Assembly: GCF_014803405.1 (NCBI RefSeq)
Contig: NZ_JACYFG010000036.1
Coordinates: 124,001-188,000 of the forward strand
Length of the DNA stretch: 64,000 nucleotides
Source: Pelagicoccus enzymogenes
GTDB lineage: Bacteria > Verrucomicrobiota > Verrucomicrobiia > Opitutales > Opitutaceae
Reading direction: 5' to 3'
Positions 23,573-57,947 of the stretch are shown one piece after another. The notes under the pieces are model-generated. The model saw only the letters and a program-made list of their open reading frames with translations, was not told where the DNA came from and ran no database searches. The translations under genes and the position numbers were made by a program. Numbering within the stretch: the stretch's first letter is position 1; every line of letters starts with the position of its first letter.

Positions 23573-23643
23573 AACTGTTCTCCTTATCGAGGCATCAATT
23601 CAAAACTTCGTCACACTTATTGCCCTTTGCGGACAAAAACCAA

Positions 23644-25237: not shown

Positions 25238-25241
25238 TGCC

Positions 25242-26312: not shown

Positions 26313-26327
26313 GGGGCAATATAGGGG

Positions 26328-27470: not shown

Positions 27471-27497
27471 CTACTAAAAATCAATACGATCAAATTC

Positions 27498-27524
27498 GTA
27501 GGGCTGCCGCTTGCGGCACGCCGC
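27498..27524. repeat. GC-rich palindrome (REP-like) between two genes
   Basis: The stem TGCCGC-TT-GCGGCA at 27505-27518 follows a GTAGGG head. It lies in the 99-bp gap between the binding-protein-like gene and the CoA-transferase gene. The head resembles the GTAGGA of other REP elements here, but the body differs. Confidence 0.5.
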
Positions 27525-27569
27525 ATTGCAGGACAAATCCCAGTTCACTCCATAAGTCAGGAGACACCA

Positions 27570-28727: not shown

Positions 28728-28737
28728 TCGCTCGCCT

Positions 28738-35868: not shown

Positions 35869-35881
35869 TCCACAGCTCTGG

Positions 35882-35902
35882 GACGCGTTCCCCGAACGCG
35901 TC
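35882..35902. repeat. Short perfect hairpin
   Basis: GACGCGTTC-CCC-GAACGCGTC has a 9-bp perfect stem and a 3-nt loop, 14 bp after the PhyH stop and 28 bp before the next start. There is only a short T run (TTT) after it, so it may attenuate or stabilise mRNA rather than terminate. Confidence 0.55.
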
Positions 35903-35929
35903 TCCTTTGTTTCCAGCCACCCGACTCCA

Positions 35930-41623: not shown

Positions 41624-43792
41624 TTATTTCGAATTCTTGTGCGCTTCGAGCCACTTCATCTGCTCGTCCCGATCCCACTTTACCTTATCCTCCAAAGTAC
41701 GCTCCCATGGCTTGGCATCCCACATGGAGGAACCTGCCACATAATGCAGACGGGCATAGCTCACGAGCCTTTCATAGACGCGCACGCTTTCCTCCATCTT
41801 TTCCTTCAGATCGTCCGCATAGCGATCCTCACCGCTCACGATCAGCATCCGCTTGGCGAAAGCAGCTTGGATTTTCAGCTGATAATAGCGGGCCGTGAGA
41901 ATAAGGCACTCGCTGTCGCTGACAAAACGCGCCCGCTCGGCTCCGTCAATCCCAGGCAACGCCGCCATGCGCTGGGCGATTTCCTTGGAACGCTGCGCCA
42001 TCTCCACATAGAGCTGCACCAATTCCAGCGGAAGCAGGTTCTTCCGCGACACCTCTCCAACCACAACCTGCTGGGCGTATTGGGCAACCGGGAGCGACCG
42101 CAAGTCCGCAACCTCTTCAAGACCGTAACGCTTCCGGTAAAGCTCGATCGTGTAAGCATCGATCGGACGACTATAGTAACGCTGGCCCGTGTGACCGGTA
42201 GCTCCCACAATCGGGCCTTCCTCGAGCGAGCTCCGGGATCCGATGATCTCGTCCACGTCCGTTTGTACGCGAGCGATCGATGGAGGAAAGAAATTCCCAA
42301 AACGCACTGCGGTCAGGTTTTGCAATCCGGGCAGGATGGGAGCGGTCAAGTCGTACCATTCGTTGAGCAGCTCACCGACTTGGCGGTTGCCGAACTTGCG
42401 ACCAAGCCAATCGGCGGACCATTCCGCTTCTTTCGCTGCATCACGCTTGGCCTTCCAAAGATAGCGTCCTTGCAACAAATGCCACAGCTCGTCCCGCTCG
42501 AAAGCCACCAACGCTTCCCCCTCGCCAAGCGAGTCAACCGTATTGGGCCATACCCAAGCTTGCGGGGGATAAAACCACGACCCCTTGAAGTACCCTTCGT
42601 CCTTCCAGTGCCCCACCATTTCATTGAAGAGCTTCGGGCTTCCGGTGCGATACGGAACAGCGTCGGCCGGGTCGTGCAGGTTGATGATATGCCCCTTGAG
42701 CACCCCCTTCCATTTGCGATGACGTTCATCCGGCCACGGACTAGTGATCGTTTCGTCGTTGTGCTTAAGTTCCGAATACAGGTTTGGATAAAGAGTCGGC
42801 AAGGCCTCCATAAACGCTGGATCCAGCGTCCAATCCCGAATGATCAGCAAAGGCTCCCGCCCCGATTCGCGTGCTGTCTTGAAAATGACGTTTTCGAACC
42901 AGCTCTGCTGATGCTCCAAAGCAAGCGATTCTCCCGGACAAACGTAAAGCCCCACACTGGGAAAGGTCTCGAAGTAGCGTGAAAGCAAGGTGCGGTAGTA
43001 CTCCGCAACAAACGCGTCCGGCACGTCGTAGCGGGTCGGCTCCTTGCCTTCCCGCCCCATCGACTTGGCAAGGTCCTCGCTGATGTGGATATTATAAAAA
43101 TGAGTGAGCACCGTTATGTTCCGTTTGGCGCACTCAGTGGAAAGCCAACGGAACTGCTCTTGGTTGCGACGGATCTCCTCAGCCGTGAAACGGGAGGCCT
43201 CCGGATATTCAGGTAGCTCGAGGATATGCGGGAACAAGTGCCCCGACCAGAGAACCAGCGTATTCAGACGAGCTGACATCATGTAGTCGAGATAGCGTGT
43301 CAGCAGCGGACGATCGAAAAACCACGGAAAGATATCAGGGTGAAGTTCCGATTGGTAGTCCCAGCTTTGGCTCAACATCATCAGCACCGTGCCGCGAATC
43401 TCAAAGTCGGGGTCGCCTTCGACTCCAATAACCGAATACGGCTGCGTCAACTCTTGCGCCCCATAAAGAAAACCAGCCGGAGCAGCAGCATGAACCCGCC
43501 ATCCTCCGCCCGACGCCTCCAGTCGGAAGCCCTCAGTCGAGGCGAAGTCAGCATCCTTCACCCACTCGACCTTATCGGAAAGTCCCGCTTCGCTTAGCAG
43601 GGATCTCGCATGTTGCTCGATGAGCGACTCGCTTGCCGCAGTGGAGACAAAGCCAAATGGCAAAAGCAAACATGCTCCCACCCAAACTCGCCGAAACGTA
43701 GCAATCCGCTTGCTTTCGTTCCCCTCCGCGCTCCTTGCAGTCAACAAGCAGCACAGCCTCCCAATACATCTCAAAACGCAATTCAGTATCAT
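41624..43792 (-). CDS. Secreted GH20/GH67-like alpha-glucuronidase-type protein, unusual leader
   Basis: Up to 722 residues. The first ATG (43792) lies inside a degenerate repeat array and gives a long basic leader before the likely signal sequence (RRVWVGACLLLPFGFVSTAASES); translation may start later at a non-ATG codon. FRLEASGGGWRVHAAAPAGFLYGAQEL is the small alpha/beta domain that precedes GH20, GH67 and DUF4838 barrels. FEIRGTVLMMLSQSWDY and SARLNTLVLWSGHLFPHI begin the TIM barrel. LLIIRDWTLDP and GLYVCPGESLALEHQQSWFE are candidate catalytic strands. The C-terminal 150 residues are helical. Substrate unknown. Confidence 0.65.
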   Translation of the reverse strand: MILNCVLRCIGRLCCLLTARSAEGNESKRIATFRRVWVGACLLLPFGFVSTAASESLIEQHARSLLSEAGLSDKVEWVKDADFASTEGFRLEASGGGWRVHAAAPAGFLYGAQELTQPYSVIGVEGDPDFEIRGTVLMMLSQSWDYQSELHPDIFPWFFDRPLLTRYLDYMMSARLNTLVLWSGHLFPHILELPEYPEASRFTAEEIRRNQEQFRWLSTECAKRNITVLTHFYNIHISEDLAKSMGREGKEPTRYDVPDAFVAEYYRTLLSRYFETFPSVGLYVCPGESLALEHQQSWFENVIFKTARESGREPLLIIRDWTLDPAFMEALPTLYPNLYSELKHNDETITSPWPDERHRKWKGVLKGHIINLHDPADAVPYRTGSPKLFNEMVGHWKDEGYFKGSWFYPPQAWVWPNTVDSLGEGEALVAFERDELWHLLQGRYLWKAKRDAAKEAEWSADWLGRKFGNRQVGELLNEWYDLTAPILPGLQNLTAVRFGNFFPPSIARVQTDVDEIIGSRSSLEEGPIVGATGHTGQRYYSRPIDAYTIELYRKRYGLEEVADLRSLPVAQYAQQVVVGEVSRKNLLPLELVQLYVEMAQRSKEIAQRMAALPGIDGAERARFVSDSECLILTARYYQLKIQAAFAKRMLIVSGEDRYADDLKEKMEESVRVYERLVSYARLHYVAGSSMWDAKPWERTLEDKVKWDRDEQMKWLEAHKNSK

Positions 43793-43831: not shown

Positions 43832-44827
43832 CTACTTCCCCTCTTTTCCGAAGTGCTCCCGCGCCCGGTCGACCACGATGGCGAGCAAGATCAACCCACC
43901 TAGCAAGGTATTCGAGTAGTTGTCGTTTATCTTAAGAATGACCAAGGCGTGCTGTATCAGCTTGAAAATGACGGCTCCGACAAGAATGCCGACCGGAGAA
44001 ATCAAACTACCGCTTAAACCAGTTCCGCCGATAATAGCCACCGCAAAGGAAATGATCAGCCAATCGTCTCCCGTTTGTGGGGCCGCATTGCCAGACCAGG
44101 AGGCCCACATGATCGCAGCCAAGGCCGAAAAGCCACCTGAAATCACATGGGCAACGACAATCATCCGGTCCGTATTGATTCCGCTGAGACGGGCCGCGTC
44201 GCTATTGCTTCCAGTCGCCAGCAAACGGCGCCCGAGCACCGTATTGCGATAGAGGAAAGATATGCCCCAAAGCACGAAGAGCACGATCAGCACCATGAAG
44301 GGAATGCCAAATGCACCTCCCTGCCCGAGCCACCAAAAGCTTTCGGGTACACGATATGAATTGCCACCGGAAATGCCGGAACGCAGCCCCATGTATACGA
44401 ACATCATCGAAAGCGTCACGATAAAGGCGTCGATCTTGAAACGCGTTATGATCAAGCCATTGATCAGTCCTGTGAGCGGTCCGATGAGAAAGACAAGCGG
44501 CACGCCGATCCAAGGCGACAAGGCTGCGTACTCCGGAGCGATAGCCATGCCGAGGCTTACGGTTATGATGCTGCCGATCGCCCCAACCGTAAGATTCAAG
44601 TCACCTACCGCTAAACAAACCGCTTGCGACATCGCGACCAAGACATAGAAAGCCACGTAGCGACTCTGGCTAAAAAAGGTTTCACCGGTAAGAAAACTCG
44701 TGGACGCCAAGGCCATGGATATCATGAGCAGACCAGCGAACAAGATGAGCCCAAGGGTACGACTGCTCACCCAATCCGTCTGACCGAAGCCGAGGTTCGT
44801 ATTTAAAGTATTAGTACGTGTACTCAT
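43832..44827 (-). CDS. Sugar ABC transporter permease (RbsC/YtfT type)
   Basis: A 331-residue protein with about 8-10 helices and the BPD_transp_2 layout: YVLVAMSQAVCLAVGDLNLTVGAIGSIITVSLGMA, then the conserved GLINGLIITRFKIDAFIVTLSMMFVYMGLRSG and GRRLLATGSNSDAARLSGIN. It ends an operon with its ATPase (35 bp away) and binding protein. There is only one permease, so it likely acts as a homodimer. Substrate probably a pentose or rhamnose-like sugar. Confidence 0.92.
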   Translation of the reverse strand: MSTRTNTLNTNLGFGQTDWVSSRTLGLILFAGLLMISMALASTSFLTGETFFSQSRYVAFYVLVAMSQAVCLAVGDLNLTVGAIGSIITVSLGMAIAPEYAALSPWIGVPLVFLIGPLTGLINGLIITRFKIDAFIVTLSMMFVYMGLRSGISGGNSYRVPESFWWLGQGGAFGIPFMVLIVLFVLWGISFLYRNTVLGRRLLATGSNSDAARLSGINTDRMIVVAHVISGGFSALAAIMWASWSGNAAPQTGDDWLIISFAVAIIGGTGLSGSLISPVGILVGAVIFKLIQHALVILKINDNYSNTLLGGLILLAIVVDRAREHFGKEGK

Positions 44828-44861
44828 AGTGATATATCCAATTCAATTAGATCGTGCCGGC

Positions 44862-46367
44862 TCATACGAGATACCTCCCGATCTCTCGACTGACGGTGGC
44901 GTAGGTTTTGGCCTCGGTGTCAATGTTCGTGACCTCGCCAACTATCTTTTGCTCGCGAAATACCAAAATGCGATTGGTAATGCGGACGATCTCCGGCAGG
45001 TCAGATGAAATCACGATGATTGACTTCCCTTCCTTGGCTGCCAGATCCCAAATTAGTTGGTGGATCTGCTCCTTTGCCCCTACGTCAACGCCAACCGTCG
45101 GCTCGTCGATTATCAAGATATCGCAGTCGGCCGCTAACCATTTCCCGATGCTGATCTTTTGTTGGTTTCCGCCGCTAAGCGCCCCAACGTATTGGGAGAG
45201 ACTGGGCGTCTTCACACTCATCGCCTCCGCATATCGAGTCGCCGTGGCCCGCTCGAGCGAATCGTCGATCTTTCGCGTAATGGCATTTCGTATACGCGGC
45301 CAGATCGGCAAGGCGATGTTCATGCGAATAGAATTCTCCAGCAACAAGCCCTCTTCCTTCCGGTTTTCCGTGACGTAACCGAGACCGTATCGATAAAGAC
45401 TCGTCTCCACGCTATCGATCTGAGCCACTTGTCCCTTGATCAAAACGGAGCCGGAATCCTTCTGGTCTTCTCCAATTAGGATCCGGGCAAGCTCAGTACG
45501 TCCCGCTCCTACGAGGCCGTACAATCCAAGCACTTCCCCCTGATGCAACTTGAAGCTGACATCCCGAGCCTTCCCTACGCGGACGATGCTACGAGCTTCT
45601 AGGACGACTTGGGAATAATTAGGGTTGAGCACCCCGAGATGCTCTTCCTGGCAAGTACGGCCAATCATCATCTGCACAAGATCTTGCTGTTGCAACCCCG
45701 CGACCTCACGCTCCCCGATAAACTGGCCGTCGCGCAATACGCTCACTCGATCGCACAAGCCAAGAACTTCGTCGAGTTTGTGGGAAACGAAAACGAGCGC
45801 CACCCCCTTCTGTCTCAGTTCTTTCAATACATCGAAGAGACGCCGCGCCTCATGCTCCGTAAGCGAACTGGTCGGTTCGTCGAGAAAGAGAACGCGTACA
45901 TCCGCTGAAAGCGCCTTGGCGATTTGGATGAGCTGCTTCTGAGCCGCGCTCAGCCCCCGGACCAACCGATCGACAGGTAGATCCAATCCCACCAAGTCCA
46001 TGTAAGTTTGGGCGGTCGCGTAGATTCCCTTCCAGTCGATCACGCCCCAACGGTTTCCCTCCAACTTATCGAGCATGATGTTCTCCGCGACCGACGCGTC
46101 TGGAATCACCTGCAGCTCTTGGTGCACAATACCGATTCCTTGGGCCAGACTGTCTCTGTAATCAGCAAATTTCACCGCATGCCCATCGATTGCCATTTCG
46201 CCTGAATCCGCTTGGTGGATACCGGTCATGATCTTAATTGCGGTACTCTTTCCCGCTCCGTTCTCGCCGATCAAGCCATGTATCTCTCCCGCTCGAAAAT
46301 GCAGTGACACCTTGTCCAGCGCCCTCACTCCGGGAAAGGATTTGGAAATGTTTCGAAGCTCTAACAT
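44862..46367 (-). CDS. Sugar ABC transporter ATP-binding protein (two ATPase domains)
   Basis: A 501-residue fused dimer of the RbsA/MglA type. The first domain has Walker A GENGAGKST, signature LSAAQKQ and Walker B VLFLDEPTSSLTE. The second has a degenerate Walker A GLVGAGRTE, signature LSGGNQQK and Walker B ILIIDEPTVGVD. This combination is normal for the family. It is cytosolic, coupled to the downstream permease. Confidence 0.95.
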   Translation of the reverse strand: MLELRNISKSFPGVRALDKVSLHFRAGEIHGLIGENGAGKSTAIKIMTGIHQADSGEMAIDGHAVKFADYRDSLAQGIGIVHQELQVIPDASVAENIMLDKLEGNRWGVIDWKGIYATAQTYMDLVGLDLPVDRLVRGLSAAQKQLIQIAKALSADVRVLFLDEPTSSLTEHEARRLFDVLKELRQKGVALVFVSHKLDEVLGLCDRVSVLRDGQFIGEREVAGLQQQDLVQMMIGRTCQEEHLGVLNPNYSQVVLEARSIVRVGKARDVSFKLHQGEVLGLYGLVGAGRTELARILIGEDQKDSGSVLIKGQVAQIDSVETSLYRYGLGYVTENRKEEGLLLENSIRMNIALPIWPRIRNAITRKIDDSLERATATRYAEAMSVKTPSLSQYVGALSGGNQQKISIGKWLAADCDILIIDEPTVGVDVGAKEQIHQLIWDLAAKEGKSIIVISSDLPEIVRITNRILVFREQKIVGEVTNIDTEAKTYATVSREIGRYLV

Positions 46368-46440
46368 GCGGATTCCATTGGCCTATAAAGGGCACGAAGG
46401 CGTACAAAGCTTGAAGAGAGAGGAGTAGAGAGATGCAGAA

Positions 46441-46475
46441 CCACGCTTCGTGATTCTTCGTGCACTTCGTGGGTA
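46441..46475 (-). repeat. Degenerate 9-10-bp tandem array 3' of the binding-protein gene
   Basis: Read on the minus strand, three units of CACGAAG with short spacers (CCCACGAAGTG, CACGAAGAAT, CACGAAGCG) start 20 bp after the binding-protein stop. Same position relative to the gene as at 43791 and 52144. Confidence 0.65.
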
Positions 46476-46494
46476 AAAATGAATTTAGAAAGTC

Positions 46495-47523
46495 TCATCG
46501 CTTCACCAAATACTTTCCCTCCATCTCCGACACGATGCGTTTCGTCATGGATTCGATGCCAGGCTGAAAATCGTCGACGTTTTCGCGGGTGACTACCACC
46601 GCTCCTGAATCGATGAATTGGTAAGATTCAACCGGCTCCCAGCCATTCAACAGACGATCTAGCAAGGCACAGGATATGTAACCGTGCCCAAATGGGTTTT
46701 GAGCTAGGGTCGCATCGACATGCCCAAGACGAATCGCCTCCAGCACCCGCTCATCGGTATCGAGCCCAACAAAACGGATACGCTTGGCGCCAGCCTTGGC
46801 GTTGCGTTCCGACAAAAGCACAGACGCAGCCACCGTAGTTGTATAACCCGTACAAATGATCCCATCAACCTCGTCCCCTCGGGCCACCAAAGCGCTCTCG
46901 ATTTTCTCGCGTGCCTTCGCTTCCGTAGTAACGTCGCCAACCGTTTGGATTATCTCAACCTTGGGATATTTGGCGACGACCTCCTCGATGGCAGCTTTGC
47001 GAATCGGCGTATTCGCGTCCGTAAGGGACTCGAGCACGTTGAGGATCTTGCCTTGCCCTCCCATCAGCTGAATCAACTGCTCTGTCGCCTGCGTCGCTGC
47101 CGACCGCGTATTGGTTGCAACTGCGAAGGTCGCAGCAGATCCTTCCATTGGTTCGGCGCCGTAAGCTACCACATGGCGTCCTCCATCGCGAAGCCTAGCG
47201 AAAAGCCCTTTCGAACCTGCTGGGTCTACTGGATAAATGGCAAAACCTTGATGGCCGAGGGTGTACATCGACTCGACGTTTGTATTCACGTTTGCCTGCG
47301 TGCTCTCTTGTCCGACCAAAACGCGGACCCCTGTGCCGGTCGATTCTTGGTAAGCTTTTCCGCCCTCGCCCACTGCGTTGCAATAAGGGTGCGGCAAGGG
47401 AAGGTAGAGCACAATGGGGTCTATAGCGGTGCCCTCAGAGCCCGATTGAGACCACTTGATACCAGCAAGGACCAGGAACAGACCAAGAAGAGTAAGGATA
47501 AGGAACTTATTGTTTCGAGTCAT
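46495..47523 (-). CDS. Sugar ABC transporter substrate-binding protein (RbsB type)
   Basis: A 342-residue periplasmic binding protein. Residues about 7-24 (FLILTLLGLFLVLAGIKW) form an uncleaved anchor or signal. IVLYLPLPHPYCNAVGEGG is the first ligand strand, GFAIYPVDPAGSKGLF the hinge-side helix, and IRFVGLDTDERVLEAIRLGHVDATLAQNPFGHGYISC the C-terminal lobe typical of ribose/rhamnose-type binders. It is 10 bp downstream of the Gfo/Idh gene. Confidence 0.9.
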   Translation of the reverse strand: MTRNNKFLILTLLGLFLVLAGIKWSQSGSEGTAIDPIVLYLPLPHPYCNAVGEGGKAYQESTGTGVRVLVGQESTQANVNTNVESMYTLGHQGFAIYPVDPAGSKGLFARLRDGGRHVVAYGAEPMEGSAATFAVATNTRSAATQATEQLIQLMGGQGKILNVLESLTDANTPIRKAAIEEVVAKYPKVEIIQTVGDVTTEAKAREKIESALVARGDEVDGIICTGYTTTVAASVLLSERNAKAGAKRIRFVGLDTDERVLEAIRLGHVDATLAQNPFGHGYISCALLDRLLNGWEPVESYQFIDSGAVVVTRENVDDFQPGIESMTKRIVSEMEGKYLVKR

Positions 47524-47533
47524 GGGTAAGCGC

Positions 47534-48634
47534 TCAATTGCCGACGAGGTCCTCCAAACCGTATCGCCTTAAGAGGTCTGCAATCTTGACCGGGCTTCCC
47601 GAATCGGACGCCTCCTCCATCGCCTGCATCATAGCCACCGTCACGATTCCTTCCCGAGCGTCAGGCTTGGGAAGCTCTTCGAAACGCAGGCAATGGGCGA
47701 TGTACTCGATGTAGTTTTGATATTCGCCCGCATGGTGAGAATGCCCGCCAAAGCGGAAAAAATAGCCGTCGAAGTCTTCAAAGGTTTCCATGCCTGAGCG
47801 ACCGTCCAACTTATAGGCATACCTCAAGTCGTAGTAGTCCGCTTGGCTGGCCCCGTTGTCGCAACGCAAGATGCAACTCATGTTGCTGTCCCGGTGGTTC
47901 GGAACCACCGGACTGGAATAGGTCCCGCTCACGCGAGCCGGCACTCCCGTATCGGTTTTCAACACGTAGTGAAACGTATCCGGATGTTTGAGACCGAGAG
48001 CCTTCCCGTTGTTGCTCAAGTAAGCGTAGCCGCAGACTTCCTCGATGTTCGGCAGGTACCAGCGAATCAGGTCCCCGGGGTGGCTAATACAACCGTAGAG
48101 CCATTTGAAGCTATCGTTACGAGCCCAGTCCTTCTTGAGAAACCAGCGATGGTCCGCGTTGTAATAAGACTCGATCGTCGCGATTTCCCCAAAACGTCCT
48201 TCGTCGAAGTGCTCCCGTTGACGTTTGAACGGCGCGAAAAAGCGCGAGCTTTGCCCTACCATCACTTTGCAGGCGCTTCGTTCAACCGCCTCCAAGACGT
48301 CCTTTGCTCGCTCCAAGTTATCGATAAACGGCTTCGTGCAAACAACGTGCTTCCCCGCGTCCAATGCCTGAATCACATGGTCCGCGTGCAAGTGGTCAGG
48401 GGTGTAGATACCGACGACATCGACATCCGGATTTTCCAGCATCCGCTCGTATTGGGTCGTGTAGCTGCTCAAGCCAAATTCCCGACAACGATCGCGGCAA
48501 AGCTCCTCGTTTCGATCACACAGACTAACCACGTCCCACATCTCGCTCTGCATTCCTGCAGAAATGATACTGCGTCCTTCCCCGAGGCCCAATACTCCAA
48601 GGCCCAACCTTTCCTTTTCTCTAACGTTTTTCAT
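47534..48634 (-). CDS. Gfo/Idh/MocA oxidoreductase, candidate D-apiose dehydrogenase
   Basis: About 366 residues from ATG 48634 (an ATG at 48655 would add seven residues inside the upstream gene). Rossmann LGLGVLGLGEGRSIISA, then GIYTPDHLHADHVIQALDAGKHVVCTKPFIDNLERAKDVLEA with the Lys-Pro motif, and GCISHPGDLIRWYLPNIEEVCG with catalytic His. Known D-apiose dehydrogenases belong to this family. Its placement beside an apionate-type kinase and RuBisCO-like protein makes that a reasonable candidate, but family members also act on many other sugars. It overlaps the BASS gene by 14 bp. Confidence 0.85.
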   Translation of the reverse strand: MKNVREKERLGLGVLGLGEGRSIISAGMQSEMWDVVSLCDRNEELCRDRCREFGLSSYTTQYERMLENPDVDVVGIYTPDHLHADHVIQALDAGKHVVCTKPFIDNLERAKDVLEAVERSACKVMVGQSSRFFAPFKRQREHFDEGRFGEIATIESYYNADHRWFLKKDWARNDSFKWLYGCISHPGDLIRWYLPNIEEVCGYAYLSNNGKALGLKHPDTFHYVLKTDTGVPARVSGTYSSPVVPNHRDSNMSCILRCDNGASQADYYDLRYAYKLDGRSGMETFEDFDGYFFRFGGHSHHAGEYQNYIEYIAHCLRFEELPKPDAREGIVTVAMMQAMEEASDSGSPVKIADLLRRYGLEDLVGN

Positions 48635-49922
48635 CAGACACAGCCGCATCGTCATATACAGGATTGCGGCTCCAAATGTTTGCTAAAATCGAACCAGAAA
48701 TGTTCATCCAAGGACTGAATACAGCAGAGGCCAACCCAAGCGTCCCCAACTTCCCCATGGAGCCTGCGATTCCGGAAGCCATGCCTCCATTCTGCAATCC
48801 GACTTCCAAGGCCATCGCCCGAGCGGAATTCTTCCCCAAGCCCAATGCCCGGCTAAACCAGTAACCGAGAAAATATCCGGCCGCATTGTGAATGACTGCC
48901 GCCACGAACAACAGCAGCCCCACGCTCATCAGCGACTCACGTCCCGCAGCAGTCGTAACCGTAGTGAAATAGACGATACCAAACATCGAAAAGTAGGGCA
49001 TCGCCTTCCCGATCCCCGGAGCGTGCTTCAGCAACGAGTGGTAGATCACTCCAAACAGGATGGCGGCCATAAAAAAACCGAATACACTCAAGGACATTGC
49101 GCCCGACTCGCCCAAGCGTTCCTCAAACCAAGGCCATCCCACGACCGCAAGCAGCGCCAGCCATGCGAGGGATGCGGCTGCGACCGACCTCCAAGCGAAC
49201 AAGGAACGAGACGAAGCCCCGCGGAGAAAGTCCGCCAATAGAGCTGCTCCGATAGGAGCCAGTACGATCTTCACGATCGTCATGACCATTCCTAAGAACT
49301 TCACTTCAACCAACGTCGACGCAAATACCTTCATCAGCAGTGGAGTCATGAGCGGAGCCACGATCGTAGCCACCGCAGTAACGGTGACCGACAAGGCCAA
49401 GTTCGCTCTAGCCAAATAGGCCATCACATTCGACGCCAAGCCGCTAGAGCACGATCCTATCAGAATTATGCCGGCCGCAATCTCCAACGGGAAGTCGAAG
49501 ACCCGCGTCAGCAACCACCCCATAGTCGGCATGATCGTAAACTGGCAGAGCAAGCCAACCAAAACTCCCTTAGGCTGCCGCGCCACGCCGCCAAAATCCT
49601 TGAGCGACATCTGCGTCCCCATGCCAAACATGACCAACTGCACGACAATCAAAATCAGCCACTTGTTGCGAAGGTCGAATTCGCCTAAGTGCAGAAAACG
49701 ATCTGGATACAACATGCCTCCCACCACCGCAGCGACAATCCAAGCCGTGTACTGGTACCCCTTCATGGAGGGTACCGCCCCCAGTCCGAACGCCAATAAA
49801 GCCGCCAGCAGCAAACCGCTAGCAGACGCGTATCCAGAATCAATGACACTGAACAGAGATAGAACGAGAACTAGAGCTGAACCGCCTGCGAGGAAGAGGC
49901 TTATTTTTCGGGCAAACAACAT
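48621..49922 (-). CDS. BASS-type (bile acid:sodium symporter) transporter
   Basis: A 433-residue protein with about ten membrane helices. LVMFGMGTQMSLKDF, GIILIGSCSSGLASNVMAYLARANLALSVTVTAVATIVAPLMTP and ALEVGLQNGGMASGIA match the sodium-site segments (GxxPGGxxSN-like and ExGxQN) of the BASS superfamily. Members move organic acids such as pyruvate and sugar acids. Its position between the racemase-like and dehydrogenase genes suggests a sugar-acid substrate. Confidence 0.88.
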   Translation of the reverse strand: MLFARKISLFLAGGSALVLVLSLFSVIDSGYASASGLLLAALLAFGLGAVPSMKGYQYTAWIVAAVVGGMLYPDRFLHLGEFDLRNKWLILIVVQLVMFGMGTQMSLKDFGGVARQPKGVLVGLLCQFTIMPTMGWLLTRVFDFPLEIAAGIILIGSCSSGLASNVMAYLARANLALSVTVTAVATIVAPLMTPLLMKVFASTLVEVKFLGMVMTIVKIVLAPIGAALLADFLRGASSRSLFAWRSVAAASLAWLALLAVVGWPWFEERLGESGAMSLSVFGFFMAAILFGVIYHSLLKHAPGIGKAMPYFSMFGIVYFTTVTTAAGRESLMSVGLLLFVAAVIHNAAGYFLGYWFSRALGLGKNSARAMALEVGLQNGGMASGIAGSMGKLGTLGLASAVFSPWMNISGSILANIWSRNPVYDDAAVSDEKR

Positions 49923-49990
49923 GGGGTAAAACGTAAGGTCGCGTCGAGCCTTAGCCCGAGACTGCGCTAAAGGGTTCTTCGAGATACAGG

Positions 49991-50656
49991 CTAATCACCG
50001 AGAACCCCTTTCAAGTATTCCATGGCAATTCCGGGACTCGCCAAAATCGGCGTCTTCCGATCCTCAGGCGAGAGCGTTTCGACGACTCGCGCCATGGACG
50101 CTTGGGCGAGCAAAATCACATCCACTTCCTTGCTCAACGCCTTCAAGGCAACCGAAACCTTTTGATCATGCGTTGCCGCATCTCCCCCCATCAAGGCTTC
50201 GAAAGCGCCCTCACAAAGCGTTTCCGTCAATTCGATCTCCTTGCCAGCCACTTCAGCGCGGCGACGTACCAAGTCGGCGGTCGGTTCAAGCGTAGTGGGC
50301 AATGTAGCGATTACGCCAATACGTTTTCCGCTAGCGACTGCCTTGTCAGCCATAGGTTGGTCCACCCGCAACACAGGCACGTTTGTCAATGTCGCCGCCG
50401 TTTCGACGGCCTTTCCGATCGAAGAGCAAGTTACCAAAATATAATCCGCGCCCGCAGCCGCTGCTGATCCGACATGCTCTACGACACGTCTCGCCGTACC
50501 AGCCGTCATCTCGCCGCGTTTGATGACATCCTTGATCAAACTGTCGTCCGCGATGTTAAACGTATCCACATTCGGGATATGCTGCTGGCTCAACTCCTGA
50601 AAGATCGGAACTAAGGTAGCCGAAGTATGTACAAATCCTAGGGTTTTCTTTTTCAT
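49991..50656 (-). CDS. Asp/Glu/hydantoin racemase-fold protein, second catalytic Cys missing
   Basis: A 221-residue protein with the Asp/Glu racemase fold: VTCSSIGKAVETAA gives the first catalytic Cys (C77). In the second half, where related enzymes carry Cys (ILLACxSM-like), the sequence is ILLAQASMAR with Gln at about 185, so a two-cysteine racemase mechanism looks impossible. C148 in TLCEGAF is not at the usual place. It lies 14 bp from the DUF1537 kinase. Possibly an isomerase or decarboxylase using one thiol; unknown. Confidence 0.78.
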   Translation of the reverse strand: MKKKTLGFVHTSATLVPIFQELSQQHIPNVDTFNIADDSLIKDVIKRGEMTAGTARRVVEHVGSAAAAGADYILVTCSSIGKAVETAATLTNVPVLRVDQPMADKAVASGKRIGVIATLPTTLEPTADLVRRRAEVAGKEIELTETLCEGAFEALMGGDAATHDQKVSVALKALSKEVDVILLAQASMARVVETLSPEDRKTPILASPGIAMEYLKGVLGD

Positions 50657-50669
50657 ATCAATCTTCCTC

Positions 50670-52043
50670 TTAAATCTTCCCGTTCGCCACTTGGGAGAAA
50701 TAGGTCTCGTCCCCCACCTGGCCTCCCTTGAAATTCAGCTCGATGCCGTCAACCGGAGACCCTGGAGCGAAGGCTCGGCAAACCGGAGCACCGGGACATA
50801 AAGGAGCAAGCATCTCTACCGCTTCGATACCCATTGCCCGAGCTGCAAAGCTCGAGGAGTCGCCCCCAGCGACGAGCAATCGCTTGATCCCCGTTCTTTG
50901 GATACATTCCTTGGCAACTTCTCCCAATGCGCTGCCAAACCACTCGCCGCTTCGCTCCTTGAGCTCTTGACGTCCAATCCTGCCCCCAGAAAAGGCCTTC
51001 TGCGTCCGGGTGATTCGTGGATCTTCCGCCCCTCTGGCTGTATGCACGATAGCGGGTCTACCTGCTTCTAAATGAGAACAACTTTTTTCCACAACCCGGC
51101 TCAGCTCTTGTTGGCGACCGTTTTCGCTCGTGAGCAGACTCGTGTCCAAAGCCACCTCTGCAAAGCCGTTGCGCGTTGCGTGCTCGATTTGAGAGTCTGT
51201 AACAGGAGAACAACTACCAGAAACAACGAGCAGATTCGATACTGGCTCGAGCGCTTCAAACGCTTCTTTCTCACTAAGCGCTCCACTTCGCTTCCACACG
51301 GATCCTAGAGCCACTTCCACTCCAGAGGACCCAACCGAAAAGACTGATTGAGCTTCTGCAAGCTCGTCCAGCAAGTCCCCTATCACATCCAAGTGGCCAA
51401 CACTCAGCGTATCCAAAACGACTGCTTCGTATCCCTCTGCGATTCGCTGTTCGTAAACAGCCCACGGGTTGTCCGACTCTAACTCTTTGAAATCGATCAA
51501 ACCAATCGATTTGCGAGTCTGCCTTTGCAAATGCCTCACCAAATCAGCCTCTCGCATAGGAGTGACTGGATGCCGCCTAGCAGAGGGATGCCGGTCCAAG
51601 CGAAAAATTTTTCCTTGGCTACCAATTCCCATGCGAGCGAACAAGTTCCCAAAGGCAACGTAACGACCCAACGCTGGCGTACCTACCACTACCGGAGTCA
51701 ATTGATTCTTAAAGAAACGACGTCCGACTTCGATAGCCCGACCGATCGATCCGATCTCGGGCGAGGAATCAAAGGTAGAGCAAACCTTGTAGTGAACATG
51801 CCTGGGACCGAGCTCATTCAACGACGAAAAATCCTCCAGCAACCTTTCTTCCATGCGGTCCGGCGTCATCGACCGCGTCAGCCCCGCCACGCCGATTGCA
51901 TCCAGCTCTCCGTACTTTCCCAGCGTCACCTCACTTGGAGGCTTTACAAACAGTACCGTTCGAGCTCCCGCTCGTGTCAGGAACTCCAGCGCATCCGTGG
52001 ACCCCGTAAAATCGTCGGCGTAGTAAGCAAGCTTCAGGGTCAT
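50670..52043 (-). CDS. DUF1537 kinase, 3-oxo-isoapionate kinase (OiaK)-like
   Basis: About 457 residues from ATG 52043. KLAYYADDFTGSTDALEFL is the DUF1537 entry. VHYKVCSTFDSSPEIGSIGRA is a variant of the substrate loop seen in kinases encoded next to RuBisCO-like proteins. LLVAGGDSSSFAARAM and the NFKGGQVGDETYF end belong to the C-terminal nucleotide domain. It is downstream of the RuBisCO-like gene across a REP pair. The known pathway is D-apionate to 3-oxo-isoapionate, phosphorylation by OiaK, decarboxylation by OiaX. The assignment is by neighbourhood and family, not by test. Confidence 0.82.
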   Translation of the reverse strand: MTLKLAYYADDFTGSTDALEFLTRAGARTVLFVKPPSEVTLGKYGELDAIGVAGLTRSMTPDRMEERLLEDFSSLNELGPRHVHYKVCSTFDSSPEIGSIGRAIEVGRRFFKNQLTPVVVGTPALGRYVAFGNLFARMGIGSQGKIFRLDRHPSARRHPVTPMREADLVRHLQRQTRKSIGLIDFKELESDNPWAVYEQRIAEGYEAVVLDTLSVGHLDVIGDLLDELAEAQSVFSVGSSGVEVALGSVWKRSGALSEKEAFEALEPVSNLLVVSGSCSPVTDSQIEHATRNGFAEVALDTSLLTSENGRQQELSRVVEKSCSHLEAGRPAIVHTARGAEDPRITRTQKAFSGGRIGRQELKERSGEWFGSALGEVAKECIQRTGIKRLLVAGGDSSSFAARAMGIEAVEMLAPLCPGAPVCRAFAPGSPVDGIELNFKGGQVGDETYFSQVANGKI

Positions 52044-52059
52044 CGCGCACAAACTCCCA

Positions 52060-52122
52060 GTAGGCAGCGGCCTTGCCCCGCGATTTCAATTGCAGATATC
52101 GCGACGCAAGGTCGCTTCCTAC
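52060..52122. repeat. Full REP-type inverted pair
   Basis: Two opposed units, GTAGGCAGCGGCCTTGCCCC (52060 onward) and the reverse complement of GTAGGAAGCGACCTTGCGTC ending at 52122, share GCGAT / ATCGC stems and a 15-bp centre. It is in the RuBisCO-like/kinase intergenic gap. Same family as 34019-34079. Confidence 0.85.
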
Positions 52123-52143
52123 AAATCAATCGTCCGAGAAAAA

Positions 52144-52175
52144 ATCCGTGTTCATTCGCGTTCATCCGTGGTTCC
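52144..52175 (-). repeat. Degenerate 10-bp tandem array 3' of the RuBisCO-like gene
   Basis: Read on the minus strand: ACCACGGATG, AACGCGAATG, AACACGGATT, starting directly after the RuBisCO-like stop codon (52176-52178). Three units with period 10. Confidence 0.7.
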
Positions 52176-53420
52176 TTACTTCTTTCCAAATTTTTCTACA
52201 GATGCTCCAAACTCTGGATACGCGTCAGCCGTTTCCTCCAAGCTCAAGCCTGAAACCGCTCCGTTCCAAGCTTGCTGCAGAGCTCGTACACCGTCGCTCG
52301 GGCCGCCCGGATGCCCCATGATTCCGCCGCCCGCCATGTAGAGCAAGTCGACCGTGGGCACCCGACGATAGGTTTCGAAGGCTTGCCCGCCCCACTGCCC
52401 TGACGACACAACCGGCAAAACGCTGTATCCGCCCAATAAAGGTTTCCCGCAGGCTTCCATGGATCGAACAACTGAATCGTCGCTTTCCCAGAACTTGTTG
52501 TCGATGCCATTCACATGTATCTGGTCTACCCCAGCCAATCGCCAAAGCTTCTGGTATGCAGGAAATTCGATCCCCAGCAAGGGATGCCGATTCATCATGC
52601 CCCATCCATTACGGTGACCATGGATGGCCAAAGCTCCCTGGTCGCAAATCTTCTTGGCGCCCGCCAAGCCGACACTGTTGAGGCTTACCATGGCGCAGGT
52701 ACCCCCTGCCTTCACTACGGTTTCGTAGTTTCTCAACATCGCATCAAGCTCGTCCGAGACGTTAAAAGCGTACATCACCTTTTTCCCAGTTCGCTCCGCG
52801 CACTCGTTGATAACGGCCATGATAGCGGAAACGCGCTCCGCAAAGGGGGAATTCGCCGAGCTGGACATAAGTTCGTCATCCTTGATGAAATCGATTCCAG
52901 CCTCAACCAATGCCTTCACAATCTCCGCCGTATCCGCTGGCGCCATACCGATACTCGGCTTAATGATCGTACCGATTAAAGGCCGTCCTTCGACTCCCGT
53001 CAGACGGCGACAGCCTTCCACTCCGAATTTCGGTCCGCGGAAGTGAGTAGCATAGGAGTCAGGCACTTCCAGATCCATCAACTTCAAGCCCGTGAACTGG
53101 GTCAGCTCATACAAGTTTCCCTGCAAGGTGGAAATCAAGGTCGGCAGATTGTATCCAAAATTCTCTATCGACCATGAAACTCGAACGCGAGCTTGCTGGT
53201 ACTTTCCCGGAGCAAGCTTCTCGCTTGGAATGCTGGGAGTCGAAACCACCTCGAGAGCCTCGATCAATTCCACGCGGGCCGCAAACCTTGCCTTGAGTTC
53301 CTCCGTCTCGCCCGGCACCGGCACGAAAGTACCCGAGGACTGCTCTCCCGCAAGCGTCGCCGCAGCCTTCTCTAAAGGGAAAGGCGTTTCGATAAAGTAT
53401 TCTGCGTAAATGCGTTCCAT
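52176..53420 (-). CDS. RuBisCO-like protein (form IV), 3-oxo-isoapionate-4-phosphate decarboxylase (OiaX)-like
   Basis: About 414 residues from ATG 53420, whose first base overlaps the TAA of the upstream GH78 gene (TAATG). Residues 149-158 (IGTIIKPSIG) give Lys154; the next canonical Lys (K177 of RuBisCO) is Ser here. FIKDDELM gives Lys180, Asp182 and Glu183, the carbamate/Mg site. IHGHRN gives His267/269, QIHVNGIDNK gives His302 and Lys309 at the spacing of His327/Lys334, and MAGGGIMGHPGGP gives the phosphate site. So the catalytic set is largely kept. Known partners of a DUF1537 kinase next to this fold are 3-oxo-isoapionate-4-phosphate decarboxylases or transcarboxylases. Confidence 0.88.
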   Translation of the reverse strand: MERIYAEYFIETPFPLEKAAATLAGEQSSGTFVPVPGETEELKARFAARVELIEALEVVSTPSIPSEKLAPGKYQQARVRVSWSIENFGYNLPTLISTLQGNLYELTQFTGLKLMDLEVPDSYATHFRGPKFGVEGCRRLTGVEGRPLIGTIIKPSIGMAPADTAEIVKALVEAGIDFIKDDELMSSSANSPFAERVSAIMAVINECAERTGKKVMYAFNVSDELDAMLRNYETVVKAGGTCAMVSLNSVGLAGAKKICDQGALAIHGHRNGWGMMNRHPLLGIEFPAYQKLWRLAGVDQIHVNGIDNKFWESDDSVVRSMEACGKPLLGGYSVLPVVSSGQWGGQAFETYRRVPTVDLLYMAGGGIMGHPGGPSDGVRALQQAWNGAVSGLSLEETADAYPEFGASVEKFGKK

Positions 53421-56155
53421 TAATTCAATACAGCGTTCGCACCACAAACGACGCGTCCCTTCACCTTGACTTCGTAGCTGCCGGATACCGCTCGGCAAAG
53501 CAGCCAGTTTTCCTGCTCGGAAAGCGCTTCCAATCCATCGAGATCAACCGATCCTTCGGATCCTTTCGGCACCCAAACCTCTGCCTTAGCATTCGCGGGG
53601 ATTCGGAATCGCCATATCCACTCCTCTTCCCCGTACTCCCAAGCGCTTTCGTAGGTCCCGTGCAGACTGCCGTAACTCGTCTTCACCCAGGCGAGAGCTT
53701 CGCTCGGGTAGGGCTTCAGTACCGCTTCGGCAAATCCGGGCTGGGCAGCCGCAAGCTGAATTCCCGCGACATGGCTAAACAACCATTCCCCGACCGAACC
53801 CAAAGAATAATGGTTGAAGGAATTCATAAGCGGATCGAAGAATCCACCCTCTTCAGTCCATCCGTTCCAGCGTTCCCAAATCGTAGTGGCTCCATGCTTT
53901 ACTGGATACAGCCAGGAGGGATAGCTGTCCTGCAACAAAAGCTTGTAGGCGACGTCCGGGTACCCCGCTTCGGTGAGTACTGGATTCAAAAAGCGGATAC
54001 CCACGAATCCGGTACTCAGATGCCAACCGAGGTTTCTAATATTTTCCACCAAGTGTCCCGCAGCTTTTTTCCGCAAGCTCTCTGGCAACAGGTTCATCGA
54101 GAGAGCCAGCAGGTAGGCCGTCTGCGTCTCAACCGTCAGGTGGCCATCCTCCTTAACGAACTCAGCCTGGAAGGCGGATCTGACCTTCTCGAACGTTATC
54201 TGAAACCTCCTTGCCTCTTCCTGTCTTCCTAGGCATTGAGCCACTTCGGCCATTTTCGCGGCGTCGTCCGCCCAGTAGGCGGTTGCCAAAAGGTTCTTCA
54301 TCGGAGAATGGGTGCGGAATTCCCGATCGGAAGGAATGCACAGCCAATCGCCGTAATTGTTGCGCAGGTCGTTTACCCGCAAATATTCCGGGTTCGTTCG
54401 TTCGAGGTAATCCAACCAGGCTACCATGGACTCCCAATGCCTCTCCAACACCCGCGTGTCGCCGTATACCTTCCAAAGCGTATGGGGAATAATGATACCC
54501 GCGTCAGCCCAAGCAGCACCACCGACCAAATCGTCGAGACCGACGAAGTTTTCGCCTTCCCTCAAGCGCGGCGCTGTATCCGGAAAGATCCCATCCTCCG
54601 TTTGGGCGTCGCAAACGTCGACCATCCACTTGGTGAAAAAGGCTGCCACGTCCATGTTGTAGGTTGCCGTGCGCAGAAAGACCTGGGCATCACCCATCCA
54701 ACCAAGACGCTCGTCCCGCTGAGGACAATCGGTGGGAACTGATAGGAAATTATCCTTTTGCGACCAGAGCCCGTTTTTCCACAAGCGGGTCACGTCATCG
54801 TTGGAACACTCGAATTGGCCCGCAGGCGGGGTTGCGGAATGAATCACGCACGCTTCGATTTCGAAAGCCCCCGGATCCGCGAGTCCCGAAACTTCGACGT
54901 ACTGGAATCCGTGAAAGGTGAAGCGCGGCTCCCAGCGCTCTTCCGCGTCGCCTTGGCAACAATAGGTATCGGTCGCCTTCGCCCGCCTAAGGTTTTCTAC
55001 ATACAAGCTTCCGTCCGGCTTCAATCGTTCCGCAAAGCGGATACACACCGAAGTCCCGGCTGGCTGCGATAAACGAATGCGCGCCCAGCCTGAAATGTTC
55101 TGACCGATGTCGTAAATGAAAACACCGGGTTCAATTTCCGTTTTGGAAAGCGGCTGAAAAGTCTCAACCACCTTAACCGGCTCCGAACGCTGAGAGCAAA
55201 GCGCAACGGGGGGCGTCTCGATCGTTTGGGCGGGCAACCAATGAGCATCTCCAAAACCCGCCGTATCCCAGCCTCTCTGCTCGCGGCGGGCGTCATAGAC
55301 TTCGCCCATCATGAAATCGGATGTCAAAATAGCCCCTGTATCGCAGCACCAATCCGCATCACTGGAGACTATCGATTTTTCCCCATCTTCGTATTCAAGT
55401 TCGAGTTGAAGCGCGAACGCGTTTTGCAAATCGCCGTAGCGACCCCGCGTTTCTTGCCAGCCTACATAACCGCTCCACCAACCGTCACCCAAGATCACGC
55501 CAATAGCCTGCTCTCCCTCGGAAAGCAACTTGGTGACATCGTATGTGCGATAGTGGATACGCGTGTCATAGTCGGTCCACTCGGGGGCAAACAGATCCTC
55601 TCCTACTCGCTTGCCTTCGATACGAGCCTCCACGACTCCGCGAGCGCTCAAGTAGAGGGTTGCTCGCGAAAACGGCTTTGCGACCGAAAAGGCTTTGCGA
55701 AAAGTGACCGGCGTACCGCAATCGGTCCAAGTCGGCTCGATCGCTTCAGAATCCCGTTCGATCACCTGCGGGTCCGCGGCGATCCAACGCGCCTGCCAAT
55801 CCGTGTTTTTCAAAAGCCCCATGCTCCAATGCGCAACTTCCGAGCGCAGGCAGGCACCCGTTTCGTCCCAAACCTCCACCCGCCAGAAGCAGAGCTGGCG
55901 AGATTGGAGAGACTTACCCTTGTAGACGATTTGGGATGTCTGAGCAGACTCGACTCGCCCGCTATCCCAGAGGTCGCCCTCGCCTAGATCAATCTTTGCA
56001 GGAGAACTCGCCACTAGGATACGACGAGCAACTTGCCGAGCGCCGCGGCGCTCTCCTCTTAGCTCGTAGCTAAGACGAGGAAAAAGCTCATCGATACCGA
56101 GCGGATTCCGCAAGTATTCGCACCGTAGATACGTGATGGAGAGGGAGAATGACAT
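53420..56155 (-). CDS. GH78 alpha-L-rhamnosidase, no signal peptide
   Basis: A 911-residue protein. The N-terminus (SLSITYLRCEYLRNPLGIDELFPRLSYEL) is the GH78 leader beta-sandwich without any signal peptide, so it is probably cytosolic and acts on imported oligosaccharides. SRATLYLSARGVVEARIEGKRVG is the second sandwich. The (alpha/alpha)6 domain has FLSVPTDCPQRDERLGWMGDAQVF (catalytic acid region). HYSLGSVGEWLFSHVAGI near the end is conserved. It is the first gene of the seven-gene run down to the ABC importer, coupled by TAATG to the RuBisCO-like protein. Confidence 0.93.
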   Translation of the reverse strand: MSFSLSITYLRCEYLRNPLGIDELFPRLSYELRGERRGARQVARRILVASSPAKIDLGEGDLWDSGRVESAQTSQIVYKGKSLQSRQLCFWRVEVWDETGACLRSEVAHWSMGLLKNTDWQARWIAADPQVIERDSEAIEPTWTDCGTPVTFRKAFSVAKPFSRATLYLSARGVVEARIEGKRVGEDLFAPEWTDYDTRIHYRTYDVTKLLSEGEQAIGVILGDGWWSGYVGWQETRGRYGDLQNAFALQLELEYEDGEKSIVSSDADWCCDTGAILTSDFMMGEVYDARREQRGWDTAGFGDAHWLPAQTIETPPVALCSQRSEPVKVVETFQPLSKTEIEPGVFIYDIGQNISGWARIRLSQPAGTSVCIRFAERLKPDGSLYVENLRRAKATDTYCCQGDAEERWEPRFTFHGFQYVEVSGLADPGAFEIEACVIHSATPPAGQFECSNDDVTRLWKNGLWSQKDNFLSVPTDCPQRDERLGWMGDAQVFLRTATYNMDVAAFFTKWMVDVCDAQTEDGIFPDTAPRLREGENFVGLDDLVGGAAWADAGIIIPHTLWKVYGDTRVLERHWESMVAWLDYLERTNPEYLRVNDLRNNYGDWLCIPSDREFRTHSPMKNLLATAYWADDAAKMAEVAQCLGRQEEARRFQITFEKVRSAFQAEFVKEDGHLTVETQTAYLLALSMNLLPESLRKKAAGHLVENIRNLGWHLSTGFVGIRFLNPVLTEAGYPDVAYKLLLQDSYPSWLYPVKHGATTIWERWNGWTEEGGFFDPLMNSFNHYSLGSVGEWLFSHVAGIQLAAAQPGFAEAVLKPYPSEALAWVKTSYGSLHGTYESAWEYGEEEWIWRFRIPANAKAEVWVPKGSEGSVDLDGLEALSEQENWLLCRAVSGSYEVKVKGRVVCGANAVLN

Positions 56156-56411: not shown

Positions 56412-57947
56412 TTATCGTGCTACAAGTTCGACTTCAGGTTCGGAGGCAGAGGCTCCGCTTCCTTTGAGCGGAGGAACCACGCCTCGATAGAGTTTCTGCT
56501 GGATCGTGGCGCAGGCCGTGTAAAGCACCACCGCAAGTATCCATGCCGGCAATACCTGCATGAAGAAGTCCGGCTGGTAGCTCGCCAAGAAGCTCGGCAA
56601 AACATCGTTCACCCAAGCAAAACTCGGATAAGCCTCCTTGGCATAAAGAAAGAAGCAAATGATGAAGGAACCAAACCAGCCCACCAAAGCCGGCCAGCTT
56701 GCCAGAAGGCCAAGTCGCTCTGCCCAGTTGCGTTGCAGACCGAGCTTCGGGAACACCCAGTAGTCGAAGAAGATGAACGCTCCGAGCGGCATGAAAAAGA
56801 GACCGTAGTAAGCCACCACCATATCGAGGTAGAAAGTCACCGCAGGAACGCAGGCTGCCACCATCATACCGACACCAGCGAACATGGTGATCCTCCAACG
56901 GCTCCAACCCGGAGTGACCACCTGGAACGCCAATCCCGCGCGATAAAGGGTCGGGTTCGCTGTCGACCAGCCCGCAAGCACGACGCACACCAAGCCAGCC
57001 CAGCCCGCGCCCAACCAAGCGATGCCGCCAGGGCTTGGGTTTGAACCAGCTCCATTGAGCTGCAAGAAGGCGGCACACATGATACCGGAACAAATCCAAG
57101 CGATATAGTGGCCGATGAACATGCCGAAGGCCGAAGCGAAACCGTAGTACCACTTCTTGGCATAACGGAAAATAGTGACGTCACCCATGCCCATGTGTTG
57201 GGAGACGTTGCACAGCCAAGCAAGTCCTACGCAGCTCCAGAAGCCGTACTTGGATACCCCCTCGGCGGGCACTCCTGTCCAAATCTTGGTCTTGGCCGCT
57301 TCCATGAAATCACCCGGTCCCGTAACGCCCAGCGCTGGCAAGGACGCCACCGCTCCCCCTACGAAAATCAATGGCATCCACGGGGCGCATACTTTGGCGA
57401 AGTGAGCCAACTTCTCGAAGCCAAACATCGCCAGCAAGGCGATCACCACCCCTACCCCGCACGCCACGAGCATCCAAGGCAAGCTCGGTATCACGTCGCC
57501 CGCCGCGAAGTTCGGGCTTTCAATGCCAAAGGGGTGGGCGATAGCAGTAGTGGATACAGCCACCATCGAACCAGCAAGCACGCACATGATCACCGCAAAG
57601 AGGGCCGAGTAAATCACCGTCAAATACGGCCCAGCAATCTTGCGAATTTGCCAATAAACCGTCAGACGCTCCTTCACCGCGATCGGAGCGCACATGAGGG
57701 CCCAGCTCAAGACGGCGAGGATGTTTCCGACTAGGAGACCAAACAGCGCGTCGAAGGCGGAAACGCCATGCAGTACGAGCAGCGTTCCCAAAACGAATTC
57801 CGTACCCGCCACGTGTTCGCTGGAGAACATGGCGATAAAGGACTTGGCACCGTGTAACTTGTCCTTGGATACGGGTTCGCGCTCGAACTCGTTGACCGCG
57901 TCGAGACGTTCGACCAACGACTGTTTATGGGTATCTGAACTACTCAT
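56412..57947 (-). CDS. NCS1-like (purine-cytosine permease family) transporter
   Basis: A 511-residue membrane protein with about 12 helices. FIAMFSSEHVAGTEFVLGTLLVLHGVSAFDALFGLLVGNILAVLSWAL is the NCS1 N-terminal pattern. The segment AWLCNVSQHMGMGDVTIFRYAKKWYYGFAS and ALVCVVLAGWSTANPTLYRAG resemble the sodium- and ligand-binding helices 6 and 8. Members move nucleobases, but relatives in carbohydrate clusters are uncharacterised. It is 57 bp from the GH127 gene upstream and is followed by the 59-residue protein. Confidence 0.82.
   Translation of the reverse strand: MSSSDTHKQSLVERLDAVNEFEREPVSKDKLHGAKSFIAMFSSEHVAGTEFVLGTLLVLHGVSAFDALFGLLVGNILAVLSWALMCAPIAVKERLTVYWQIRKIAGPYLTVIYSALFAVIMCVLAGSMVAVSTTAIAHPFGIESPNFAAGDVIPSLPWMLVACGVGVVIALLAMFGFEKLAHFAKVCAPWMPLIFVGGAVASLPALGVTGPGDFMEAAKTKIWTGVPAEGVSKYGFWSCVGLAWLCNVSQHMGMGDVTIFRYAKKWYYGFASAFGMFIGHYIAWICSGIMCAAFLQLNGAGSNPSPGGIAWLGAGWAGLVCVVLAGWSTANPTLYRAGLAFQVVTPGWSRWRITMFAGVGMMVAACVPAVTFYLDMVVAYYGLFFMPLGAFIFFDYWVFPKLGLQRNWAERLGLLASWPALVGWFGSFIICFFLYAKEAYPSFAWVNDVLPSFLASYQPDFFMQVLPAWILAVVLYTACATIQQKLYRGVVPPLKGSGASASEPEVELVAR

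Follow-up and report, generated by a model that had tools for sequence, protein, structure and literature searches.

In a 64,000-nucleotide stretch of the Pelagicoccus enzymogenes genome (contig NZ_JACYFG010000036.1, positions 124,001 to 188,000; hereafter the window), the gene of a RuBisCO-like protein (RLP) lies within a run of minus-strand genes that begins with a glycoside hydrolase of family GH127 (58004–60067; Pfam GH127), a candidate aceric acid hydrolase whose nearest PDB chain is 5mqo. This gene is followed by that of a 511-amino-acid protein (56412–57947) with no Pfam or NCBIfam match, by eye a probable membrane transporter, which has homologs at the same position in the loci L052, L053 and L201, and by a GH78 α-L-rhamnosidase gene with five rhamnosidase domains (53420–56155). 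The GH78 stop codon overlaps the start of the RLP gene (52176–53420, 414 amino acids) as TAATG, and after a gap of about 120 nucleotides comes a DUF1537 kinase of the OiaK type (50670–52052). Next in line are an Asp/Glu-racemase-family protein (RAC; PF01177, 49991–50656), a proposed aldose-ketose isomerase, and a BASS-family transporter (48621–49922), a proposed sugar-acid importer. Beyond them lie, as accessory genes, a Gfo/Idh oxidoreductase (47534–48655) and an ABC sugar importer, namely its sugar-binding protein (46495–47523; PF13407), ATPase (44862–46367) and permease (43832–44827). The initial annotation, which took the genes from GH78 to the importer for a candidate apiose operon, had this succession right, down to the overlap of the first pair, and the unit extends upstream beyond it to GH127. 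We propose that GH127-(GH78)-RLP-kinase-RAC-BASS is a module for the release, import and breakdown of L-aceric acid from rhamnogalacturonan-II (RG-II), a proposal whose chances of being right or wrong appear to us about equal.

The distribution of these genes was surveyed in 141 relatives and in 80 named loci, the latter being the best 80 of at least 564 confirmed stretches (at least 593 matches to the patterns GEQSSGTF and T[LV]QGNLYE in 84,980 named genomes scanned), in which genes were counted by tblastn at 80 bits or more, with one query each for ApnO and ApnL. The 80 loci fall into 67 Bacteroidota, 9 Verrucomicrobiota, and 1 each of Planctomycetota, Balneolota, Actinomycetota and an unassigned phylum, and 3 of them come from genomes also present among the relatives (L110, L185 and L187). 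A close form of the RLP (at least 65% identity) is found in 20 genomes of the relatives' set, the window's included, a form of 52–55% identity in four relatives, one of which (G002) has both forms, and a protein of 33% identity in one. The order RLP-kinase-RAC-BASS is kept in 17 of the 20 genomes, and the other three loci hit contig ends after RLP and kinase. All four genes of this quartet are present in 74 of the 80 named loci, with the same order and strand in 70 and with RAC and BASS inverted in 4; counted singly, the kinase is found in 76 loci, RAC in 75, BASS in 75, GH127 in 42, GH106 in 20 and GH78 in 8. Upstream of the quartet there is often GH127 or GH78. The quartet loci belong mostly to Bacteroidota and Verrucomicrobiota, and the same quartet sits on a Rufibacter plasmid. 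Recurrence of this order across families and phyla indicates that it is not due to chance. The Gfo/Idh gene and the ABC importer were rejected as core parts, a homolog of the former occurring in 14 of the 80 named loci and of the latter in 1. An enolase-superfamily gene beside the RLP (L063, L066, L069 and L070) is not general and was set aside. A GlcD/GlcF pair between BASS and Gfo/Idh in L053, considered as a sign of a hydroxyacid product, was dropped because one relative (G040) has the pair after GH78 without an RLP and none of the 80 named loci has it at 80 bits or more.

GH127 is the commonest neighbor of the quartet, and of the 42 named loci with a GH127, 27 have it on the same strand at most 300 nucleotides upstream. 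Against 5mqo the window GH127 scores 664 bits, compared with 356 for the next PDB chain; for the GH127 beside the RLP in Terrimonas L164 the two scores are 822 and 394. The PSHYM motif of 5mqo is found in 49 of 55 module-near GH127s (at least 80 bits, the window's included), the remainder being four full-length proteins without it and two truncated ones; this motif, shared by the window GH127 and 5mqo, is missing in a GH127 paralog of G001, a relative in the same genus as the window genome. We presume 5mqo to be BT1003. In the portions available of two sources, BT1003 is a GH127 aceric acid hydrolase acting on RG-II (PMC10850190; PMC5698469). The window resembles the RG-II degradation system of Bacteroides thetaiotaomicron with BT1003 in having a 5mqo-related GH127, an apiosidase-like protein and a BT_1020-like protein; that system is described, as far as the excerpts go, for aceric acid release, and no later fate of the sugar was found in the open-licence literature. 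A Croceibacterium locus with GH127-RLP-kinase (L028) was set aside as support because the GH127 there has 5opj as its best match (123 bits) and resembles 5mqo weakly (65 bits).

The presence of the RLP in the 141 relatives follows that of GH127, which was scored as present from 60% identity upward (a limit that G004 and G096, with 41–45%, do not reach), genomes without a listed match being scored as lacking the gene. Eighteen genomes have both genes, 2 have the RLP only (G064 and G082, both fragmentary), 4 have GH127 only and 117 have neither; the corresponding counts by genus are 14, 0, 2 and 69. For RLP and GH140 the counts are 17, 3, 10 and 111. GH140 occurs in 27 genomes; of the 19 that also have GH127, 17 have the RLP, and of the 8 that lack GH127, none does.

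The RLP had been expected to be of the OiaX rather than the MtnW kind, and this expectation held. Its best NCBIfam match is the OiaX decarboxylase model NF042437 (507 bits, below the curated cut-off of 700), whereas it scores 164 and 129 bits against the two MtnW models, whose cut-offs are 409 and 514. For comparison, the Rhizobium RLP of L196 reaches 782 bits against NF042437, and the RLPs of four ApnO/ApnL clusters reach 452–525. In a tree that leaves out the outgroup, L195, L071, L181 and L183, a module clade of 37 rows is split from 16 other RLPs with a support of 100/98 and in 200 of 200 bootstrap trees; an earlier tree had a very long outgroup, and its root is therefore unsure. We also compared residues in a motif alignment to RuBisCO with 100 module rows, 14 non-OiaX relatives and 2 OiaX rows (L195 left out), using what we take to be the RuBisCO position numbers. 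E60, T65, N123, K175, K201, D203, E204, H294, R295, H327, K334 and S379 are present in all 100 module rows and all 14 non-OiaX relatives, residues that in RuBisCO presumably act in carboxylation and hydrolysis. Both OiaX rows (L029 and L196) instead have D60, G123, Q327 and G379, where the window RLP and all other module rows have E, N, H and S. Next to the catalytic residues the module has features of its own: Q121 occurs in 99 of the 100 module rows and in 0 of the 14 relatives, and position 378 is V, I or L in all module rows and F in 13 and I in 1 of the relatives. Since the scan patterns were used for selection, positions 60, 65, 121 and 123 are partly conserved by selection in the 80 named loci; the 20 module rows obtained without the pattern scan agree at these four positions.

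That the RLP retains RuBisCO residues missing from both OiaX decarboxylases favors transcarboxylation and hydrolysis to 3-phosphoglycerate and lactate, and from its sequence the RLP is more likely a transcarboxylase/hydrolase than a decarboxylase, either activity being proposed to act on a phosphorylated ketose of aceric acid. For the RLPs of Agrobacterium K84 and Xanthobacter, a review lists decarboxylation and transcarboxylation/hydrolysis in its available part (PMC6302742). The Xanthobacter 3-oxo-isoapionate-4-phosphate transcarboxylase/hydrolase, likened here by its reaction as described in the same part of that review, would have the same chemistry as proposed for the window RLP, with CHOH-CH3 replacing CH2OH; it is expected to have the retained RuBisCO residues in common with the window RLP, and its genomic setting differs from the window module. 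Other pairs of an RLP and an OiaK-type kinase (L191, L193, L194 and L197) are accompanied by SDR-type dehydrogenases and by permeases of the TRAP or KDG type. Enolase or pyruvate kinase is also present in three of these four loci, ApnO is absent from the vicinity in three, and such pairs may belong to further pathways for branched sugar acids. The enolase or pyruvate kinase near some of these pairs fits 3-phosphoglycerate as a product.

The kinase is likewise of the OiaK kind, as first supposed: OiaK (NF042436) is its best NCBIfam match (437 bits, under a cut-off of 700), as it is for four kinases of apiose-type clusters that likewise stay under the cut-off (466–520 bits), and in a tree it groups with the kinases of RLP pairs and away from two kinases of the four-carbon type, of which one is the window's second DUF1537 protein. 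In this tree the module kinases come close to forming a single group, though the grouping is not firm (54% of 200 bootstraps). In RAC, one cysteine (C77 in the window) is present in 92 of 92 sequences and a second (C148) in 83 of 92, and the motif LAQASM presumably stands where two-cysteine racemases have their second catalytic cysteine. A single acid-base residue fits a 1,2-proton transfer better than racemization, and the cysteine pattern may be taken as a weak sign of an isomerase role.

L-Aceric acid is 3-C-carboxy-5-deoxy-L-xylose in the part of PMC5698469 available, and is also named in the excerpt of PMC6353982. By our derivation its 2-ketose is HOCH2-CO-C(OH)(COOH)-CHOH-CH3. The substrate of OiaK, 3-oxo-isoapionate, is HOCH2-CO-C(OH)(COOH)-CH2OH. 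The aceric ketose is thus 3-oxo-isoapionate with CHOH-CH3 in place of CH2OH, so that an isomerase, a kinase and the RLP would suffice, and a lactonase, a dehydrogenase and an oxidoisomerase would not be needed. GH127 would free aceric acid and BASS would import it. An aldose-ketose isomerase, by elimination RAC or otherwise the FucI-like isomerase on another contig (C60), would make the 2-ketose, and the kinase would phosphorylate its C1. The RLP would then take the C3 carboxyl off the beta-keto acid as CO2, giving the enediolate of ribulose bisphosphate (RuBP) minus its 5-phosphate, and would most likely put CO2 back at C2 and hydrolyze the bond, yielding 3-phosphoglycerate and lactate, the latter in the L-form because of the C4 configuration. 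In its full form, as a first pathway of L-aceric acid catabolism with RAC as a one-cysteine isomerase, a kinase that makes the ketose 1-phosphate and an RLP that performs the latter half of RuBisCO's reaction on a RuBP analog without the 5-phosphate, to give 3-phosphoglycerate and L-lactate, the proposal is a tentative and rather doubtful suggestion. Among the RLP reactions known to us, this one would be chemically the closest to RuBisCO.

The initial annotation had assigned these genes to apiose in an RG-II context; the OiaX/OiaK kinship and the RG-II setting stand, and the apiose assignment is not supported. The oxidative D-apiose pathway with OiaX and OiaK, reportedly described by Carter et al. 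in 2018, shares with the window module an RLP and DUF1537 kinase pair, the RLP catalytic core and a branched sugar of the plant wall; unlike it, the module has RAC and BASS, has no ApnL, ApnO, TpiB, RpiB or clear ApsD, and has an RLP that forms a separate clade and scores under the decarboxylase signature. Neither a lactonase nor an oxidoisomerase had been recognized initially, and our search found neither ApnL nor ApnO (PF16896) in the window genome (6.2 Mb in 60 contigs, 96% complete, the window being on contig C35) or in G001, whereas each has matches in 9 of 26 records, both positive-control plasmids included. ApnO, ApnL, TpiB, RpiB and ApsD have no match of 80 bits or more in the 80 named loci, with weak ApsD matches of up to 70 bits; TpiB and RpiB isomerases are found in the clusters of the OiaX loci L029 and L196. 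The Gfo/Idh protein, earlier seen as a possible D-apiose dehydrogenase, is 24% identical to the protein at the ApsD position of the Rhizobium apiose cluster and does not belong to the core. By contrast, RLPs of 49–52% identity in Rhizobium, Shinella and Microvirga accompany ApnO, ApnL (NF049900), a Gfo/Idh dehydrogenase and an ABC importer, and ApnO lies near the 52–55% RLP form in G002, G005, G048 and G119, G002 having an ApnO/ApnL RLP module and a window-type module on different contigs.

A separate apiose-type cluster is evident on contig C60 of the window genome: besides the FucI-like isomerase and an FGGY kinase it encodes two transketolase halves and an apiose-type ABC importer. The three importer components (binding protein, ATPase and permease) share 42–43% identity with those of the Rhizobium cluster, and a set similar to that on C60 is borne by a Rahnella plasmid. 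The C60 cluster matches D-apiose pathway I, which in the available portion of PMC13001218 consists of the isomerase apsI, the kinase aplK and the transketolases aptA/aptB. That pathway, as given there, has no RLP, and its counterpart in the window genome lies away from the window; matching sets are found in genomes that have the quartet, at times within one operon: in L058, L072 and L073 the set immediately precedes GH127 and the quartet, and in L058 a GH140 gene comes before it. Such an arrangement side by side suggests two sugars, and apiose is probably handled elsewhere in the genome. With ApnL and ApnO missing from the search results and an apiose-type transketolase cluster present elsewhere in the genome, apiose no longer leads. 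An apiose/apionate branch, in which enzymes of families other than the known ones supply 3-oxo-isoapionate to the kinase and RLP, would accord with the nearest models, with the RLPs of about 50% identity and the same catalytic residues in ApnO/ApnL clusters, and with the apiosidase-like gene in the window; given the findings above, including the separate RLP clade, the two modules of G002 and the lack of this RLP in all eight GH140 genomes without GH127, we regard it as improbable.

It is unlikely, too, that an aceric acid module ends in an RLP that only decarboxylates, to a 5-deoxypentulose 1-phosphate that a class II aldolase would split into dihydroxyacetone phosphate and acetaldehyde. Four class II aldolase matches in the window genome and the OiaX decarboxylase as the best NCBIfam model speak for this, whereas the window RLP has all four of the residues E60, N123, H327 and S379 lost in the OiaX proteins examined, and no aldolase was recognized among the conserved neighbor families scanned. 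Another branched plant sugar acid, of the 2-carboxyarabinitol or hamamelonate type, could be converted by a dehydrogenase to a 3-oxo acid before the kinase and RLP act. Pairs of RLP and kinase occur elsewhere with TRAP transporters, SDR-type dehydrogenases and enolase or pyruvate kinase, and such varied settings suggest that several acids are handled by this pair; here, however, no dehydrogenase is conserved with the quartet (Gfo/Idh being confined to the minority of loci given above) and the commonest neighbor is GH127, which leaves little probability for such an acid.

Several points weigh against the aceric acid module itself. The identity of 5mqo with BT1003 is a presumption, and 5mqo is the best match of the G001 paralog as well (504 bits, next chain 404), although that gene lies outside the module; closeness to 5mqo is thus not by itself a distinguishing mark. 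The GH127 family has other substrates too, according to the part of PMC5698469 available. No GH127 was found in the stretch for 38 of the 80 named loci, and the same is true of 30 among the 63 loci that have over 8 kb of flanking sequence on each side; four relatives have GH127 without the RLP, and in G040 (L201 and L206) the genes FucI-transketolase-FGGY-GH127-511aa-GH78 are followed by GlcD/GlcF instead of the RLP quartet, possibly as an alternative to the quartet or through its loss. There is no recognized isomerase within the quartet, and the FucI-like isomerase is associated with the RLP in the 141 relatives as strongly as GH127 is (19 both, 1 RLP only, 6 isomerase only, 115 neither); the FucI-like enzyme on C60 may be the isomerase instead of RAC. 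The RLPs of ApnO/ApnL clusters have the same catalytic residues and also score below the OiaX cut-off, so these two features alone do not exclude apiose, and G014, G049 and G087 have a window-type RLP plus ApnL and ApnO on other contigs. Finally, the RLP tree was built without the Xanthobacter transcarboxylase, and the co-occurrence and locus counts ignore kinship.

The remaining gene content of the window resembles that of an RG-II degradation region, as had been supposed. The GH140-like apiosidase gene noted before is real (1317–2882, minus strand) and encodes an Apiosidase domain (PF13204); together with a BT_1020-like beta-propeller protein (14421–16964, plus strand; PF24067), whose true start is probably after PdxA, and with GH106 and GH28 genes, it gives the window the appearance of an RG-II region, in which we assume these families to have RG-II roles. 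This dense region also encodes proteins of 395, 722 and 511 amino acids without a Pfam match (35642–36829, 41624–43792 and 56412–57947). Homologs of the window's five plus-strand genes at 9262–16964 come after BASS in L158, with the order of PdxA and kinase swapped. The minus-strand genes at 22769–29826 encode a FAH hydrolase, with 2,4-didehydro-3-deoxy-L-rhamnonate hydrolase among its best matches, an SDR protein, a lactonase-like amidohydrolase, a RhaT-like transporter and a CoA-transferase, a set suggestive of an oxidative route for L-rhamnose/L-fucose; L056, L059 and L061 have parts of this set upstream of the RLP.

Among the sugars of RG-II, aceric acid is a hallmark, and an enzyme that releases it is known; on its breakdown beyond release, nothing was found in the open-licence literature, to which the search was confined. 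If the proposal is true, the module would name the enzymes of aceric acid breakdown, provide a genomic marker of organisms that use aceric acid and explain an RLP clade that is spread through Bacteroidota and Verrucomicrobiota, and the chemistry of this RLP could be compared directly with the carboxylation-hydrolysis half of the RuBisCO reaction.

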